Shown here one piece after another: positions 11,834 to 64,000 of a stretch of DNA of 64,000 nucleotides. The notes under the pieces are model-generated. The model was not told where the DNA came from, ran no database searches, and saw nothing but the letters and a program-made list of their open reading frames with translations. The stretch is from Myroides odoratus DSM 2801 (lineage in GTDB: Bacteria > Bacteroidota > Bacteroidia > Flavobacteriales > Flavobacteriaceae). Made by a program: the position numbers and the translations under genes. The DNA lies in the NCBI RefSeq assembly GCF_000243275.1, contig NZ_CM001437.1, positions 2,162,490-2,226,489 on the forward strand. Reading direction: 5' to 3'. Every line of letters starts with the position of its first letter. The stretch's first letter is position 1.

Positions 11834-12349
11834 TTATGCTGCTTTTTCAGATTTATCTTTTTTAGAAATCAATACAGCTCCAATCATTGCTAGTAATAAT
11901 AATACTGCAATCATTTCAAATGGAACTACGTATTCATTCAATAATACTTTTCCTAATACGTGAACAGACTGGAAGTCTTGTCCGTGGCTAGCATATTGTA
12001 ATTCGTACGCTTGATTTCCTCTTAAAGTGATTGATAACAACAATAAACCTACTAAACAGAAGGCAATCGTTGCTACTACTTTAGACACTAAAGGTTTAGA
12101 TACTTCGTGGCTGATATTTAAGTTCATTAACATGATGGTAAATAACATTAAAATCATAATGGCCCCTGAGTATACCATAATATGGATCATTCCTAAAAAC
12201 TGTGAGTTCAATAGGATGTAATGACCTGCTATTGAGAAGAAACTAACAACCAACCACAAAGCGCTGTGAATAGGGTTTTTACTCAACAACGTTAACGCTG
12301 CACTTCCGAGTGTAATGGTCGAAAGGATGTAAAATAAAATTTCTATCAT
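11834..12349 (-). CDS. nuoJ: NADH-quinone oxidoreductase subunit J
   Basis: 171 residues with five predicted membrane helices. The family signature is present near residues 45-75: LNSQFLGMIHIMVYSGAIMI, where helix 3 of the family makes a pi-bulge important for coupling. It ends in a basic, Lys-rich tail. It is separated by only 2 bases from both nuoI and nuoK. Confidence 0.95.
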   Translation of the reverse strand: MIEILFYILSTITLGSAALTLLSKNPIHSALWLVVSFFSIAGHYILLNSQFLGMIHIMVYSGAIMILMLFTIMLMNLNISHEVSKPLVSKVVATIAFCLVGLLLLSITLRGNQAYELQYASHGQDFQSVHVLGKVLLNEYVVPFEMIAVLLLLAMIGAVLISKKDKSEKAA

Positions 12350-12351
12350 AA

Positions 12352-12900
12352 TTACGCTTGATTCTGTTTGTTCGTATTAGCAATAGCTGCCTCTAAAGGC
12401 ATAACCAATTTATCTTTTCCGTAGATAAAGTTTTCACGCGTGATATCTGCTTTGGTAATCTCTCCTGATTTAGTCAAGTAAATAGCTTGTTTAGGACAAG
12501 ATTCTTCACATAAACCACAGAAGATACAACGAAGCATGTTGATCTCATAGATTTCAGCATACTTTTCCTCGCGGTATAAGTGTTTTTCTTCTGGTTTACG
12601 TTCTGCAGCTTTCATCGTGATTGCTTCTGCAGGACAAGATAAAGCACATAAACCACAAGCAGTACAGCGCTCTCTTCCTTCGTCGTCGCGCATTAGCGTA
12701 TGTCTACCACGGTATACAGGGCTAAATGGACGGGTTTGTTCAGGATAAGAGATTGTCACCTTTTTCTTAAACATGTGTTTTAAGGTAACCATCATTCCTT
12801 TGAAAATCGCAACCAAATAGATGCGCTCACTCCAAGTTAGTTTCTTGTTAGAAACCATCTTCTTTCTTCCTGATAAAGAATATGTATTAGTTGATGACAT
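12352..12900 (-). CDS. nuoI: NADH-quinone oxidoreductase subunit I (two 4Fe-4S)
   Basis: 182 residues, the peripheral-arm subunit that passes electrons through clusters N6a and N6b. Two ferredoxin-type motifs are visible: CTACGLCALSCP (from C79) and CIFCGLCEESCP (from C125). The N-terminal ~40 residues form the amphipathic region that docks on NuoH. It lies between nuoH (6 bases) and nuoJ (2 bases). Confidence 0.95.
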   Translation of the reverse strand: MSSTNTYSLSGRKKMVSNKKLTWSERIYLVAIFKGMMVTLKHMFKKKVTISYPEQTRPFSPVYRGRHTLMRDDEGRERCTACGLCALSCPAEAITMKAAERKPEEKHLYREEKYAEIYEINMLRCIFCGLCEESCPKQAIYLTKSGEITKADITRENFIYGKDKLVMPLEAAIANTNKQNQA

Positions 12901-12906
12901 GTTTAA

Positions 12907-13938
12907 TTAGTTTAATAGTAAGATTACAACTGCTGTAACGATTAAGTTCAATAATGCCAATGGGATTAATGATTTCCATCCTAAGTTCATCAATTGGTCA
13001 TAACGGAAACGCGGTAAAGTCCAACGTACCCACATGTATACAAAGATGAAGAAACAGATTTTTATAAATAGGGCTACAATTCCCAAAACATTTGCAATGT
13101 TTACTCCCCAATTTTCAACAGCCCATGACATACCTGGATAGTTATAAGCTCCAAAGTACAACACCGCGATGATAGCAGAAGAAATAAACAAGTTTGCATA
13201 TTCTGCGAATAAGAAGAATCCCATTTTCATCGAAGAGTATTCCGTGTGGAATCCACCGATTAACTCTTGCTCACATTCAGCTAAGTCGAAAGGGGCTCTA
13301 TTTGTTTCAGCGAATGAACAAATTAGGAAGATTAAAAACCCTAGGGGTTGATAAAATACGTTCCAGTTCATTCCACTTTGTTGCAATGCAATTTCTCTCA
13401 TACTCATACTTTGTGTCAATAACAACAAAGAGATAAGTGAAAGTCCCATTGCAATTTCGTATGAAATCATTTGAGAAGCAGCACGAATACCACTCATCAA
13501 AGAATATTTATTATTAGATGCCCAAGCACCAATCATAATTCCGTAAACACCAACAGAAAGTACAGCAAGAACGTATAAGATTCCTACGTTAAGATCTGCG
13601 GCTTGTAGAATAATTTCTCTTCCGAAAAGAACAAATTTGTCACCCCAAGGCAATACAGCACTTGTCATAAGTGCCAAGGTCATAGCCAAGAAAGGACCAA
13701 ATTTGAATAAGAATCGGTTAGGTGTTGTTGGTTCATACTCTTCTTTAGCAAATAGTTTTAAACCATCGGCCAAAGGTTGTAGAACCCCTCCTTTACCTGC
13801 ACGGTTTGGACCTAAACGATCTTGTATCCACGCTGCAATTTTTCGTTCAGCTAACGTAGCATACATCGCCATAAGCATTGTAATTGCGAATACAACTACA
13901 ATAATAACTGCTTTATCAATAATAATAGCTTTATCCAT
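12907..13938 (-). CDS. nuoH: NADH-quinone oxidoreductase subunit H
   Basis: 343 residues, the membrane subunit that forms the quinone tunnel with NuoB and NuoD. The signature AAWIQDRLGPNRAG is near residue 35. The loop APFDLAECEQELIGGFHTEY is near residue 215, with the acidic cluster implicated in coupling. Eight to nine hydrophobic helices are visible. It starts 11 bases after nuoG. Confidence 0.95.
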   Translation of the reverse strand: MDKAIIIDKAVIIVVVFAITMLMAMYATLAERKIAAWIQDRLGPNRAGKGGVLQPLADGLKLFAKEEYEPTTPNRFLFKFGPFLAMTLALMTSAVLPWGDKFVLFGREIILQAADLNVGILYVLAVLSVGVYGIMIGAWASNNKYSLMSGIRAASQMISYEIAMGLSLISLLLLTQSMSMREIALQQSGMNWNVFYQPLGFLIFLICSFAETNRAPFDLAECEQELIGGFHTEYSSMKMGFFLFAEYANLFISSAIIAVLYFGAYNYPGMSWAVENWGVNIANVLGIVALFIKICFFIFVYMWVRWTLPRFRYDQLMNLGWKSLIPLALLNLIVTAVVILLLN

Positions 13939-56915: not shown

Positions 56916-57224
56916 ATGATGTTTCTTATATCACCTTATAAAGCACAGTTAAAACTTGCAGCGTTTATTCGTGAAAGACGATTATTAAAGGAGCTTACAC
57001 AAGAGGGGTTAGCAGATCGTTCTGGTGTTCCTTTATCTACACTTAGAAAGTTTGAACAGAAAGGAGTGATTTCTTTAGAATCCTTCCTTAAATTGTTGAT
57101 GGTATTAGGTAGTTTGGAAGATGTATTGGAGGTAATTGAACCTCCTAAGGTTACTTTTAAATCCATAGATGATGTTTTGAAAGAGGAAACCAAAACAAGT
57201 AGAAAACGAGGACGTAAAAGATGA
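56916..57224 (+). CDS. hipB: HipB-type XRE-family antitoxin
   Basis: 102 residues. One helix-turn-helix domain of the Xre/Cro type (about residues 15-65): LTQEGLADRSGVPLSTLRKF is the recognition part. The C-terminal tail is basic (KTSRKRGRKR). The gene overlaps hipA by four bases (ATGA), the classical toxin-antitoxin arrangement. It likely binds the operator at 56857-56875 alone or with HipA. Two consecutive ATG codons (56916, 56919) could start it. Confidence 0.88.
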   Translation: MMFLISPYKAQLKLAAFIRERRLLKELTQEGLADRSGVPLSTLRKFEQKGVISLESFLKLLMVLGSLEDVLEVIEPPKVTFKSIDDVLKEETKTSRKRGRKR

Positions 57225-58453
57225 GAGAGTCAGTTAGAGAGATTAAAGTAGGAATAGATTTCGGAAATGAAGTTGAACCCGTTGGGCGTTTAGCGCAACG
57301 AGACGCTATAGTTTATTTTGAATATGATGATACTTTTCTCTCGAAATCTATTGAGCTATCACCATTTCGTTTACCGTTGCAATCGGGTCTAATTGAACTT
57401 CCAGCTAAACCATTTGAAGGATTAGCAGGTGTTTTTGCAGATAGTTTACCTGATGGTTGGGGACGATTGCTTTTTGATCGTATGATGCGAAAAGACGGTA
57501 TATTACCTGCTGCAATAACAGTTTTAGATCGTTTGGCTTATGTTGGTGAGTATGGGATGGGAGCGTTGGTTTATGAGCCTGATAAGAGTCCTTTTAGTGA
57601 GGAAAACGAAATTGATTTAGATTACCTAGCTGATCAAACAAAGCAAGTATTAGAGGGAGAATCAGAATTAGTAATCAAAGAGCTATTGGCTTTAAATGGA
57701 TCCTCTGCTGGTGCTAGACCTAAAGCATTAATTGGTGTTGATGAAAAAAGAGAAACAATAGTACATGGAGCAAAACAATTGACTCCCAATTTTGAACATT
57801 GGTTAGTGAAATTTCCAAATACTCAAGATGGAAATGATGCAGGAGCAATTGAATATGTCTATGCTTTAATGGCGAATCAAGCCGGAATTTTAATGCCTGA
57901 TGTACATTTATTTCCTTCAGATAAAGGAAGTGGATATTTTGCCGTTAAGCGCTTTGATAGAGAAAGAAATGAGCGATTTCACCTCCATACTGTAGCGGGA
58001 TTGACACATAGTGATTTTAGGTTTCCATCTTTAGATTATGAAGATTTAATTGCTTTAACTAGAAGCCTAACTCAAGATCATAGGGAAGTTGAAAAAATGT
58101 ATCGTTTAGCTGTCTTTAACGTCATGGTTCACAATCGAGATGATCATGCAAAGAATTTTAGTTTTTTAATGAATAGTAAAGGGCAATGGTCCATGACACC
58201 TGCTTATGATTTGACTTTTTCTAGTGGTCCAGGAGGTGAACATAGCACAATGGTTATGGGAGAAGGTAAAAATCCAACAGTCAACCATTTGAGGAAACTG
58301 GGGTTGAATATGGGGCTTTCAAAAGAGCTTGTTGATTCTATTCTTGAACAAACAAAAGAGGCTATAGTATCTTGGAGAAAATTAGCTAGTGAATATGGAG
58401 TAAGTAAAGAAAATGTGAACTTGATTGGTAAAGTAATTGATCAATATGTATAA
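57221..58453 (+). CDS. hipA: HipA-type serine/threonine kinase toxin
   Basis: 410 residues, close to the usual HipA length. The N-terminal HipA_N part includes GLAGVFADSLPDGWGRLLFD. The loop that holds the regulatory autophosphorylation Ser in E. coli HipA reads GSSAGARPKALIGV. The catalytic core has VHNRDDHAKNFSFLM and PAYDLTFS, the HipA equivalents of the kinase catalytic and metal-binding Asp residues. In E. coli HipA phosphorylates GltX; other HipA proteins use other aminoacyl-tRNA-synthetase-related targets. No sign of recent transfer is seen. It is translationally coupled to hipB. Confidence 0.9.
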   Translation: MRESVREIKVGIDFGNEVEPVGRLAQRDAIVYFEYDDTFLSKSIELSPFRLPLQSGLIELPAKPFEGLAGVFADSLPDGWGRLLFDRMMRKDGILPAAITVLDRLAYVGEYGMGALVYEPDKSPFSEENEIDLDYLADQTKQVLEGESELVIKELLALNGSSAGARPKALIGVDEKRETIVHGAKQLTPNFEHWLVKFPNTQDGNDAGAIEYVYALMANQAGILMPDVHLFPSDKGSGYFAVKRFDRERNERFHLHTVAGLTHSDFRFPSLDYEDLIALTRSLTQDHREVEKMYRLAVFNVMVHNRDDHAKNFSFLMNSKGQWSMTPAYDLTFSSGPGGEHSTMVMGEGKNPTVNHLRKLGLNMGLSKELVDSILEQTKEAIVSWRKLASEYGVSKENVNLIGKVIDQYV

Positions 58454-59514: not shown

Positions 59515-59544
59515 AAAAAAACACCCATTTTAGGGTGTTTTTTA
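59515..59544. terminator. Bidirectional terminator between converging genes
   Basis: Stem AAAACACCC / GGGTGTTTT with A and T runs on both sides. It lies 33 bases after the TPR-like gene and 19 bases after terC on the other strand. Confidence 0.85.
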
Positions 59545-59563: not shown

Positions 59564-60592
59564 TTAAGCTTTTTCGATGGAGTCATCATCTTTCTTTTCT
59601 GGAAACATAATAGAAACTAATACAGAAATAACCAGAATTGAACCAACAATACCTAGTGAAATAGGTGATGGAATATGAACCCATGGAGAAATCAACATTT
59701 TTACTCCAATGAAGCTTAAAACAATCGCTAAACCATAGGGTAATTTGCTAAACATATGGATGAAGTTTGCCAATAAGAAATACAGAGAACGTAAACCTAA
59801 AATGGCAAAAATATTCGATGTATATAAAATGAAAGGGTCACTTGAAATAGCAAAAATAGCAGGGATAGAATCTACAGCAAAGAGCACATCAGTAAACTCA
59901 ATTACTGCAACTACAACTAGTAGAGGTGTTGCCATCTTTACACCATTTTGTACAGTAAAGAATTTTTTGCCTTCATAATTGTCAGATACTTTCCAGAATC
60001 TTTTGACTAAACGTGCCCCAGCAGATTCACTAAAATCTTTTTCATCATCGTCATCATCACCACCCCACGATTTAATACCTGCATAGACTAAGAATAATCC
60101 GAATAGCGTCATAACAACGTTAATTTTTACTACAGAACCAAAAATGGTCATCTCTGGCAAATAGGTAATATTTATAATTCCCACACCAGCAAAAATAAAG
60201 ATAGCTCTGAAAATCAAGGCTCCGATAATTCCCCAGAAAAGTACAGTGTGATGTAAGTATTTAGGAACTTTAAAGTACCCAAAAACAAGGATAAATACGA
60301 AAAGATTATCAACGGATAATGCTTTTTCAATCCAATAGGCCGCTTGGAATTGAGTAATCTTTTCTACTGCTAATGCATGACCACCTTCATCGTGGTTAAA
60401 TACCCAATACACAACACCGGAGAAGGCCATGGCAAGGGAAATCCAAACAATTGTCCAAATAGTTGCCTCTTTTGAAGAAACTTCGTGCGCTTTTTTATTA
60501 AAAACGCCTAAATCTAATAGTAACATAATGATTACTACGATTCCAAATCCCCATACTAAGCCAGGGTGTGTAGCTAAAATGTTTTGTTCCAT
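59564..60592 (-). CDS. terC: TerC/Alx-family integral membrane protein
   Basis: 342 residues with about nine membrane helices. Family blocks are AAYWIEKALSVDNLFVFILVF (acidic residues in the membrane), IEFTDVLFAVDSIPAIFAIS and LGLRSLYFLL. Between them lies an acidic cytosolic loop (GGDDDDDEKDF). TerC/Alx proteins export or sense metals such as Mn(II) and belong to the tellurite-resistance (Ter) gene set. It is placed 74 bases after a TerY-P-type kinase on the same strand, which ties it to the phospho-signalling module upstream. The name Alx is equally possible. Confidence 0.9.
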   Translation of the reverse strand: MEQNILATHPGLVWGFGIVVIIMLLLDLGVFNKKAHEVSSKEATIWTIVWISLAMAFSGVVYWVFNHDEGGHALAVEKITQFQAAYWIEKALSVDNLFVFILVFGYFKVPKYLHHTVLFWGIIGALIFRAIFIFAGVGIINITYLPEMTIFGSVVKINVVMTLFGLFLVYAGIKSWGGDDDDDEKDFSESAGARLVKRFWKVSDNYEGKKFFTVQNGVKMATPLLVVVAVIEFTDVLFAVDSIPAIFAISSDPFILYTSNIFAILGLRSLYFLLANFIHMFSKLPYGLAIVLSFIGVKMLISPWVHIPSPISLGIVGSILVISVLVSIMFPEKKDDDSIEKA

Positions 60593-60666
60593 AATTTACT
60601 TAATTACCTTGTGATGTAGAATCATCACTTTTAAATCCATTTACTTTTTATTATACCTCTTTATTT

Positions 60667-62175
60667 TTATTCCATCATTGTTACGTAAAGTAATTTACCC
60701 CCTTCATCTGCAGACATCAATATTTTTTTATCGTGTGCTAATATAATGCGTTCTTGGGGTAGTACATCAACTTGTTCTGTTATATCTTTCATCCCAATTA
60801 CGGAGAGATTTGTGAGTATCCATTGTCCGTGTTCAAAAGACAGTTGGGCAACAGCTTGTTTGTCAGCTTCGGTTAAATTCTCATTGTTAATTTTGTTTTT
60901 TGATACATGCCATTGGTGTAGTTTTTTTTGATCGCAAACGACTATTCGGTGATTTTCCAATTTCCATACCCCTTCTGGATTTCTACTATATAAATCTAAA
61001 ATAGGAACATGGTAAGGAGTTGTTTCTTTACAAAAAGGACATGTCGGTTTTGCGGTATTGTCAAATACAAACCATTTCTCACTGCAATTTGGATTAGCAC
61101 ACGCTTGGAGTAAATCCAATGTTTTTAGAAGCGCTGCTTCCCATTCATTAGCGGTTGGTCGTAAAATAGGATGGTGAAGACCCGTGATGAAAGCGCGATC
61201 TACCAAACTCGTAAGATAAGGACCTAAAAGGGTATAGGGAATTTGATTGGGGTTGCCCCAAAATGAATCCCATTTGCCTAGTTGATTTAGTTTTACCCGA
61301 TTGGTTTCATCTGTAGGATGCTCAATAAATAAGGCTTTTTCCCCCATCAATAACACTTCATCCTTGTCCGAATCTAAATCCCATATTTTCCCTCCACGAA
61401 GCGGATGCCTTCGCAATAAATACATATAAATTAATACCGCTAAAGCGTGTAAATCTGTTTTTTGGTTAGGCAGAACTCTGTTAGGGGCTGTTAGGGCAAG
61501 ATGTTTGGTGCTGAGTACTTCGGGGGCAATGAAATCAGCTGTCCCAATTACTTCAGGTGGAAACATCCCAGGAACAACAAGTCCATCTAAATCAATGATA
61601 TTAGCAGATTTGGTAATCGGATCTACTAAGATATTGTTGTAGGATAAATCAGAATGTGCTAATCCCATTTGATGCATCTTCTTTATCCCTCTTGTGATGG
61701 TTAAGGCGATGTGTAAATAACTAGACCAATCCCCAAGTTCACTAGAGTCTAGGTTGAAAGGGAATTGTTTATTGCGAAAAGAAGGGGAGGTGAACCACTT
61801 TCCTACTTTTTCATTACCAACTAAGGTTTGGTGCATTTGATATCCTTTGGCAAAGAAAAAATTGGAGTTGTAAATAGGTACAATAACACCAATTAATCCG
61901 TTTTTTTCGACAGCATCATATGGCCATCTAAAAATCTCCTCTAGATAATAGTGCGCAGCATTTCCTTGTTTTATATTTTCATGATATAAGGTAACAATCT
62001 TGAGGATTCGTTCCCTTTGATTAAGGTCTTGTTTTTCTCTAAAAAAAGCAACAACATATTCTCTTTTAGGAGAGAAGTAAACATCTTTTACTCCTCCTTG
62101 CTTGGGTTTTCCATCATCTATATATTCATAGGTTTTTGATGGGTCAACAATTGAATTAACGCGTATTATTTGCAT
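60667..62175 (-). CDS. Divergent Ser/Thr protein kinase with zinc ribbon (TerY-P triad)
   Basis: 502 residues from the ATG at 62175; a TTG eight codons upstream is less likely. The kinase domain (about 1-340) has the catalytic loop AHSDLSYNNIL (H174, D176, N181) and IIDLDGL in place of DFG (D195, metal-binding). The nucleotide-binding end is GGVKDVYFSPKREYVVAFFR, where the VAIK lysine position is occupied by Phe. A zinc ribbon follows (CANPNCSEKW with CPFCKE), then a C-terminal beta-rich part that looks FHA-like (HQWHV, LSVIGMKDI). It starts ten bases after the PP2C stop. The family is known from TerY-P systems; its substrate is not known. Confidence 0.85.
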   Translation of the reverse strand: MQIIRVNSIVDPSKTYEYIDDGKPKQGGVKDVYFSPKREYVVAFFREKQDLNQRERILKIVTLYHENIKQGNAAHYYLEEIFRWPYDAVEKNGLIGVIVPIYNSNFFFAKGYQMHQTLVGNEKVGKWFTSPSFRNKQFPFNLDSSELGDWSSYLHIALTITRGIKKMHQMGLAHSDLSYNNILVDPITKSANIIDLDGLVVPGMFPPEVIGTADFIAPEVLSTKHLALTAPNRVLPNQKTDLHALAVLIYMYLLRRHPLRGGKIWDLDSDKDEVLLMGEKALFIEHPTDETNRVKLNQLGKWDSFWGNPNQIPYTLLGPYLTSLVDRAFITGLHHPILRPTANEWEAALLKTLDLLQACANPNCSEKWFVFDNTAKPTCPFCKETTPYHVPILDLYSRNPEGVWKLENHRIVVCDQKKLHQWHVSKNKINNENLTEADKQAVAQLSFEHGQWILTNLSVIGMKDITEQVDVLPQERIILAHDKKILMSADEGGKLLYVTMME

Positions 62176-62185
62176 GGCATTCGTA

Positions 62186-63559
62186 TTAATAAACGACAAT
62201 TAACGTTCGGTCATCATGATTTCCTTTACTCCAAAAATCCATCCAAGCGACTAATTGTTCTGCTATTTGGTGATCATCGTTAAAATCTACTTTTATATCA
62301 TCTTCGTTTTCTCCTTGTAAATCAGCAATAAAATCAGTCCAAGCTGGAGTTTGCATGAGTTGACTTTCAGTGCCAAACTTAGGATCGTATATTCCATCAC
62401 TCATGGCAAATAAATAACTGAAATGTGGGGTGTAGAATACATGTAAACGATGAATAATTGGCTCTTCATGTACTTCTTTCATCGTTATGAATCGAGTTCC
62501 TCCACCAAATTCTCCCACATCTAATTTATTTAATACGGTTGCCTTTTGAAGCGTATCATCATAAATAACAATTGGGCAATCTCCCACACTATAGGACAGG
62601 AATAAAAACCCTTGGTCTATTTTTTTGCAGAGCACAAAAGCGAGTGTAGTATGAATTTCTTCTAATTGGAGGTTGCTTTGTTTCACTTGTTCCTTTAAAT
62701 TAGAAAATAGAGAAGAGATACAAGTAGAAAATGCTACAGTAAGCTCAGGTGTTACTGCAATAGACTGTGCTACTTGTTCTGGCAAAGCACAATGAGCAAG
62801 AGCTGTATCCAAAGTAAGAAGTATTTCTTGCTCTTGAAAGTAATCTTGAAGAAAGGAAGTAACCCATTGAGCCCCTTGACGGGCATAAGGAGCAGATCCT
62901 GCACCATCCGCAACAGCGAGTAATCCCCATTCCTCTGTTAGTTGTATATGACAATAGGCATCATCGCGGTAAGCTCCAACATGTGCATGAGATCGCCCGC
63001 GTTTAGATGCTGCAACGAGTTTGCGATTCAAGAATTCACTTGTGCTACTCATTGTATCAGGTTGTGCATATAAACTTGAAGAATCACTAGGTAGATTTCT
63101 CCAAAGATCCTTAGGATTGGCATTTACCATAAAGTAAATAGATTTCTTTTCTAGTTGAGTAGGGGCTTTTTGATGACTAAATACAATTTCTATTTTAGAA
63201 GAAGTCATAGCTAATGGAATGCCTGTAATGGTGCCTTGTATAGCATCATAAGACAAACCCAATGGCTCTAATCCTTCTATTGTTTTAATTTTTAAATGAG
63301 GAAATTGCTGTATATCCAAGGTAAAAGTATAAGTCCTACCAACTTCACCATGAGGTAACGTCAAATGCTCATCTTTAAATTCTTCTATTTCTTGATACAT
63401 CATAAAGTGTTCGATCACGTGATTTTGAAAGGTTTCTATCCACTCGACGCCTTGAGTAATTTCTTCTTTTTTCAATAATTGATCAATGAAGGTGTCGTGT
63501 AACTTTTTATCGATAGCAGTGTGTTGTTCGAGAACATATTTTAAAAAGCGATGACTCAT
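62186..63559 (-). CDS. PP2C phosphatase with Ig-like N-terminal domain (TerY-P triad)
   Basis: 457 residues. A helical start (1-65) is followed by an Ig-like fold of the He_PIG type at about 68-146 (GLSYDAIQGTITGIPLA is its signature). The PP2C domain (about 185-457) has GAYRDDAY, VADGAGSAPYA, YSVGDCPIVIY, MSDGIYDP and HDDRTLIVVY, the metal-binding acidic residues of the family in their usual order. No signal peptide or membrane helix is seen, so the Ig-like domain is probably intracellular. The start overlaps the TerY stop by one base (TAATG), showing translational coupling. Confidence 0.88.
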   Translation of the reverse strand: MSHRFLKYVLEQHTAIDKKLHDTFIDQLLKKEEITQGVEWIETFQNHVIEHFMMYQEIEEFKDEHLTLPHGEVGRTYTFTLDIQQFPHLKIKTIEGLEPLGLSYDAIQGTITGIPLAMTSSKIEIVFSHQKAPTQLEKKSIYFMVNANPKDLWRNLPSDSSSLYAQPDTMSSTSEFLNRKLVAASKRGRSHAHVGAYRDDAYCHIQLTEEWGLLAVADGAGSAPYARQGAQWVTSFLQDYFQEQEILLTLDTALAHCALPEQVAQSIAVTPELTVAFSTCISSLFSNLKEQVKQSNLQLEEIHTTLAFVLCKKIDQGFLFLSYSVGDCPIVIYDDTLQKATVLNKLDVGEFGGGTRFITMKEVHEEPIIHRLHVFYTPHFSYLFAMSDGIYDPKFGTESQLMQTPAWTDFIADLQGENEDDIKVDFNDDHQIAEQLVAWMDFWSKGNHDDRTLIVVY

Positions 63560-64000
63560 TATCCTAAAGTTCGATTGATATCAAAATCAGAATCAGAAAG
63601 CCCATAATGTCCTTCATTGCCACACCACGGACAAGTATTATATCCATCACCTGATATACAATGAACCCCGCCACAAACACAAGTCGCTACGGAATAAATA
63701 TTACCACAACAAGGACAACTAGGATTACCCCTTAGTTCTTGTGAAGAAACTTTTAGGGAATAATCTCGGTTACTAGAGTATTGTTTATAGGTGGCTTCAT
63801 CAATTCTAAATGCACCTTCTGCAATATAATCCCTAGATTGTAGATCCCAAAAACCTGAATCTGAAAAAGATCGCTTGAATTTGATGAGATACATACGCTC
63901 AGTCTTAGAACATTTAGCATTGAGTACAACGAATTGATCATCAGGTATAGTATGATTCTTAGTTAAATCAATTTTTTCAATTACGTCTGGATGAGCTTTG
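63559..64000 (-). CDS. TerY-type protein, C-terminal zinc-ribbon part (cut by window edge)
   Basis: The frame is open from the right window edge to the TAA at 63561-63559. A Met at 63894 is internal, since the frame continues upstream in protein-like sequence (AHPDVIEKIDL, DDQFVVLNAKC). Visible are ~146 C-terminal residues with a Cys cluster CPCCGNIYSVATCVCGG, then CISG and CPWCGNEGHYG, a TerY-C-like zinc ribbon. In known TerY-P systems this ribbon follows a von Willebrand A domain, which should lie just outside the window. It is the first visible gene of the unit. Confidence 0.75.
   Translation of the reverse strand, partial: KAHPDVIEKIDLTKNHTIPDDQFVVLNAKCSKTERMYLIKFKRSFSDSGFWDLQSRDYIAEGAFRIDEATYKQYSSNRDYSLKVSSQELRGNPSCPCCGNIYSVATCVCGGVHCISGDGYNTCPWCGNEGHYGLSDSDFDINRTLG

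Follow-up and report, generated by a model that had tools for sequence, protein, structure and literature searches.

The window analysed here is a 64,000-nucleotide stretch of the single-contig, 4.3-Mb genome of Myroides odoratus DSM 2801 (NZ_CM001437.1, positions 2,162,490 to 2,226,489), and its right-hand end contains, with high confidence, the 3′ portion of a tellurite/stress (ter) gene cluster on the chromosome of a Myroides-like flavobacterium, a cluster of a known bacterial type serving metal and envelope stress. It was analysed together with L003, a 19-kb stretch running past position 64000 (window position = L003 position + 55510). Comparison with related loci leads us to propose, at slightly less than even confidence, that the Bacteroidota Ter system consists of a working cassette (module A, HAD-PRTase-TerD-TelA-PF26677-TerD-TerC) and a plug-in phospho-switch cassette (module B, TerD-vWA-TerY-PP2C-kinase), the latter having been inserted before terC in the lineage of the window and acting in trans from a distance elsewhere. 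The pairing of the kinase gene with terC is best read as a nesting of the two modules, with module B standing between the PF26677 gene and terC in the window.

The cluster comprises twelve genes on one strand, in the order terD-terD-HAD-PRTase_3-terD-telA-PF26677-vWA-terY-PP2C-kinase-terC, and the same cluster is present in Myroides, Sphingobacterium, Frigoriflavimonas and other genomes. Twelve named loci and nine further genome stretches were compared, and gene order was counted for the Bacteroidota triads (TerY, PP2C and kinase) with at least 1.8 kb of sequence past the kinase (n = 17, window included), leaving out L015 (223 bases past the kinase), L076 (contig end inside the PP2C gene) and L005 (kinase in three overlapping pieces). 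The terC gene stands directly behind the kinase in 12 of the 17 (the window, L010, L011, L012, L013, L014, L017, L068, L069, L070, L071 and L073) and does not in L016, L018, L072, L074 and L075; given this count, the linkage exceeds chance. Among the nine non-Bacteroidota loci (L004, L019, L020, L021, L058, L101/L102, L103/L104, L105 and L107), none has terC directly after the kinase. TerD and vWA matches lie beside the triad in all 17 counted loci. Within the stretches examined, HAD and PRTase_3 genes accompany the triad in all 12 loci with terC and in none of the five without it.

Modules A and B are separable, because they occupy separate loci in two genomes and each is found without the other. 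In G465 and G399, the genes HAD-PRTase_3-terD-telA-PF26677-terD-terC form a locus separate from the triad, and the TerC encoded there is 83-84% identical to that of the window. G453 agrees, with module A and the triad on different contigs, both short, while G498 and G587 (the genome of L018) contain the triad and have no PRTase_3 match. Across 395 Bacteroidota genomes, PRTase_3 was over the cut-off in 15 and TerY_C in 10, with both in nine (G000, G127, G360, G399, G453, G465, G510, G517 and G529), PRTase_3 alone in six (G210, G215, G494, G549, G564 and G576) and TerY_C alone in one (G498); the two counts were taken to describe the same sample from their equal totals and shared genome labels. 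The seven PRTase_3 loci that were fetched all contain HAD, PRTase, TelA, a relative of the PF26677 protein and, at the end, a TerC-family match, and terC is accordingly best regarded as the tail of module A. Furthermore, a long-type TerC ends module A in three of three such loci from genomes without TerY_C (L129, L130 and L131), which places terC with the ter genes. In L132, L133 and L134, the terC slot is kept and its type changed, being filled by a shorter TerC-family gene with 22-24% identity.

TerY (vWA and TerY_C domains), the PP2C phosphatase and the kinase, with four invariant zinc-ribbon-type cysteines, are by their sequences a TerY-P triad. TerY-P systems combine a vWA protein, a PP2C phosphatase and a zinc-ribbon kinase, are linked to tellurite resistance and were proposed to act as a metal-sensing phosphorylation switch (PMC11090510, PMC4978471). 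In TerY, seven cysteines (C298, C301, C310, C312, C317, C326 and C329) as well as D11, S13, S15, T79 and D116 are invariant in 12 rows. Similarly, the acidic residues D218, D388, D449 and D450 of the PP2C and residues C367, C372, C387 and C390 of the kinase are invariant in 15 rows, and the cysteines are consistent with a zinc ribbon, for which the profile search gave no match. The kinase domain is modelled as a protein kinase fold, the fold-search rows covering mainly residues 13-366. Behind the cysteine cluster, residues from about 398 to 510 form a confidently modelled all-beta domain with no match among the 50 fold-search rows listed (mainly residues 13-366). In a sequence search of the PDB, the PP2C and TerY each gave one borderline match, the kinase matched distant kinases, and TerC gave no match. 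The single TerY_C match of the genome lies inside this cluster.

The initial annotation of the window, made from the DNA letters alone, had recognized a TerY-P triad directly upstream of terC, and profile searches with all four proteins, which matched TerY_C and VWA, PP2C_2, Pkinase and TerC, bear this out. The order and coordinates of the four same-strand genes were correct, as were the one-base overlap of the PP2C and TerY open reading frames (at 63559) and the 74 bases separating the kinase from terC (60593-60666), and the vWA domain looked for beyond position 64000 is present just past the edge. The first gene had been described as a zinc-ribbon, TerY-C-like protein, which is right as to the domain, but the gene encodes 349 residues (not 111 or 146) and is cut by the window. 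Likewise, a kinase start ten bases past the PP2C stop is true of the ATG at 62175 and not of the alternative TTG at 62199 in the list of open reading frames, which lies upstream and would overlap the PP2C gene; the ATG is favoured because Met occupies this column in eight of the 14 other alignment rows (L007, L010, L011, L012, L014, L015, L016 and L058).

The same annotation had considered the system to be reduced to one Ter output protein, which was not borne out. Eight further genes lie upstream of terY on the same strand, encoding a second vWA protein (212 residues), a 320-residue protein, TelA, TerD, PRTase_3, HAD and two more TerD. The search for ter genes to the right of the window thus yielded TelA and three TerD, which are all the TerD matches of the genome in a genome-wide profile search, and the TerD, TelA and TerC families are present together in the cluster. 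The 320-residue protein had no Pfam match in our own profile scan, and the protein database assigns PF26677 to all 50 relatives listed, the protein itself among them. TerB, which is frequent in the proteobacterial loci compared and is not taken here to define a ter cluster, was not detected by tblastn at E 1e-4 with Azospirillum TerB as a query, a search limited to L003, and ATPgrasp_Ter had no match over the cut-off anywhere in the genome; PRTase_3 and HAD are present. Apart from TerB (sought in L003 only) and ATPgrasp_Ter, the cluster fits the known TerY-P/ter system in most features tested.

The ter operon is described as inducible by Te, Zn and Mn, with Klebsiella owing part of its resistance to tellurite and zinc to terC (PMC12054061), and TerC relatives were tied to the metalation of exported enzymes and to Mn export (PMC12096827, PMC10550928). 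Under the two-cassette reading, module A would be the working part, in which TerD and TelA would act in the cytosol or at the membrane edge and TerC would handle metal at the membrane, and HAD and PRTase may synthesize the nucleoside-like metabolite that published work has suggested. Module B would be the regulatory cassette, in which the vWA protein and TerY may bind metal and scaffold a complex, the kinase and the PP2C setting opposing phosphorylation states. The likeliest kinase substrates would perhaps be the vWA and TerD partners found beside every counted triad rather than TerC specifically, a choice that we make tentatively, and TerC could be affected via the complex or by co-transcription.

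Several observations weigh against this reading. The composition of module A varies: HAD, PRTase and terC occur in the Sphingobacterium loci L012-L014, where TelA and PF26677 gave no match, and the stretch examined of Capnocytophaga L016 contains TelA and PF26677 and lacks HAD, PRTase and terC. Since no ATPgrasp_Ter is over the cut-off, the metabolite part is at best reduced relative to the enterobacterial locus. The proposed choice of substrates is drawn from their co-occurrence with the triads. A single transcript is putative, because the promoter and terminator scans are at the level of shuffled sequences (47 sites against 50.7 for the sigma-70-type scan); the separate promoter and terminator looked for between the kinase and terC were absent from the sense strand in these scans, which is weak evidence given that they find no more sites than shuffles do. 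Bacteroidota have a promoter pattern of the type TTG-N17-23-TAnnTTTG, of which the cluster region has four sense-strand copies, compared with 0.9 in shuffles: one before a transfer RNA (tRNA) gene, one about 50 bases ahead of HAD and two inside terC. Because of the copy ahead of HAD, internal starts may exist. Finally, terC could be transcribed apart, as the 74-base gap contains an inverted repeat (60611-60628, 6-base arms and a 6-base loop), a possible operator or a chance occurrence; the corresponding gap of Myroides marinus (L010) has a different 12-base palindrome.

A role of the cluster mainly in anti-phage defence, like that of TerY-P-like triads in some defence loci, is unlikely, although it has some points in its favour: restriction-type systems are found together with TerY-P triads and stand-alone defence has been reported for TerY-P-like modules whose kinases carry an OB fold (PMC11090510), the kinase here is likewise predicted to have an extra C-terminal all-beta domain, and a hipBA pair lies close by. 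However, of the ten cluster proteins (out of 12) that were scanned with PADLOC, nine had no match and the kinase matched only weakly to kinase-containing models, no nuclease, helicase or McrBC domain occurs among the twelve proteins, and the full set of ter companions TelA, TerD and TerC is present.

A somewhat less probable alternative, which the initial annotation had raised, is a TerY-P plus TerC unit in which the acidic cytosolic loop of TerC would be the point of direct control by kinase and phosphatase. The acidic loop is present, its cytosolic side being inferred from the charge distribution, and terC does lie behind the kinase in most counted triads. The loop core has 5-8 acidic residues in ter-linked TerC (24 rows) versus 1-6 in unlinked TerC (32 rows), with overlap between the two sets; unlinked means that no other ter gene was found in the fetched flanks, which spanned about 1.5 kb on each side as far as the contig extended and were checked for 33 loci. 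The 24 linked rows count as two lineages and not as independent cases, because in a tree they group as a Bacteroidota clade (18 rows, support 96/87) and a proteobacterial clade (six rows). The same loop type is found in the TerC of G210, G494 and G215, genomes without a TerY_C match; therefore the loop is no evidence for TerC as the target of the triad, and it tracks ter linkage, or the clade, rather than the triad. Moreover, the unit is not minimal, given the eight further same-strand genes, and five of the 17 triads have no terC behind the kinase, two of these genomes having terC elsewhere with module A. A strict loop motif, D[DE][ADN]?D[DE].[EKQD]D[YF][SN], derived post hoc from the first ter-linked TerC, matched neither of two new proteobacterial TerC and was rejected. 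The looser D[YF][SN] after an acidic run occurs in 24/24 linked rows and also in 4/32 unlinked rows, which makes it a tendency only, and its Ser is Asn in one sub-clade.

That terC is an independent metal-export gene and a chance neighbour of the triad is the least probable reading of all: TerC is common without ter genes (the family is matched in 29 of 100 genomes of the window's family), the genome has two further TerC-family genes and a 74-base gap separates terC from the kinase, but the 18 Bacteroidota ter-linked rows form a single clade apart from the paralogue in the genome of the window, and long-type TerC ends module A also where TerY_C is missing.

Compared with the TerY-P triad that Anantharaman, Iyer and Aravind (2012, via citing papers) described for ter stress-response loci, the cluster is alike in its TerY-like vWA, PP2C, kinase with C-terminal zinc-ribbon-type cysteines, TerD, TelA, TerC, PRTase and HAD, with no essential difference in what the citing papers describe; in the present cluster the nesting of module B within module A brings terC directly behind the kinase. 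No paper on the Bacteroidota gene order was found in a literature search by title and start of abstract, a search that did not cover Anantharaman et al. 2012. The plasmid ter cluster of Azospirillum ramasamyi (NZ_CP029830.1) similarly contains four terD-family genes, terC, two vWA genes and genes for a TerY_C protein, a PP2C and a kinase in one direction, but its terC is upstream of the triad, terB is present along with a more complete range of biosynthetic genes (phosphoribosyltransferase, StiP-like, HpcH/HpaI), and no TelA is annotated there. The enterobacterial plasmid ter locus (pVet6; terY-CYXYW-ZABCDEF of PMC12054061) shares TerC, TerD, vWA/TerY_C and biosynthetic genes, whereas it is arranged in two divergent operons with terB and terW, and pVet6, as described, has no kinase annotated after terY. 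The window TerC belongs to the same family as the TerC/Alx metal-handling proteins (PMC10550928, PMC12096827) by the TIGR03718 profile, and differs from those described in being ter-linked, ter-linked TerC having on average a more acidic loop.

Within related genomes, the TerC of the window is 94% and the kinase 78% identical to the Myroides marinus proteins. The kinases of own-genus genomes (L007, L068-L071) have 55-57% identity to that of the window versus 65% for Sphingobacterium (L012-L014), which belongs to another family; this suggests horizontal transfer or several old cluster lineages. On the Hymenobacter plasmid L005, positions 12001-13483 hold a TerY-P kinase homologue that is split into three pieces in overlapping frames and is not covered by any listed gene, adjoined by vWA and PP2C genes; no terC is annotated within 12 kb. 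Directly upstream of the cluster in M. odoratus is a tRNA-Met gene with a terminator-like hairpin behind it, and an Rfam scan of the 19-kb L003 at the gathering threshold found only the tRNA and no riboswitch family. A genomic island at this tRNA was rejected: the 3′ end of the tRNA is not repeated over 12 bases or more in the window or in L003, and 12 related loci contain no tRNA. On the other side, a hipB-like helix-turn-helix gene shares four bases with a hipA-like gene; the pair points in the opposite direction, its end lying about 1.1 kb from terC.

Table. Features of the Myroides odoratus ter cluster and its flanks (window numbering unless marked L003).
Feature	Position	Strand	Remarks
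terY (part)	63559..64000, to window edge	-	C-terminal end of the 349-residue vWA + TerY_C protein; PF15616 1.1e-36, PF00092 1e-9
terY, full gene	L003:8049-9098 (end at 64608 in window numbering)	-	crosses the window edge
PP2C-type phosphatase, 457 residues	62186..63559	-	PP2C_2 PF13672 2.8e-28, residues 187-428
Divergent Ser/Thr kinase	60667..62199	-	likely start ATG 62175 (502 residues); Pkinase PF00069 9.8e-11; C-terminal zinc-ribbon-type Cys cluster, then all-beta domain (modelled)
terC, TerC/Alx-type membrane protein, 342 residues	59564..60592	-	acidic loop between two membrane stretches; PF03741 1e-45; TIGR03718 355 bits (cut-off 246.4)
Terminator-like hairpin 3′ of terC	59516..59543	-	stem of 11 pairs with a T run after it; matches the consensus only, 7 sites of this kind vs 6.5 expected in shuffles
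PF26677 protein, 320 residues	L003:9855-10817	-	beside TelA in Bacteroidota ter clusters
Bacteroidota-type promoter pattern ahead of HAD	L003:13959-13988	-	where the first two terD genes adjoin module A
tRNA-Met	L003:15528-15602	-	
hipB-like and hipA-like genes	56916-58453	+	HipA_C 3.1e-49, Couple_hipA 1e-14

Taken together, neither the adjacency of the kinase and terC nor the acidic loop points to TerC in particular as the target of the triad. Genomes with the working cassette only, with the switch cassette only, or with both at separate loci are natural test cases for what the switch adds.

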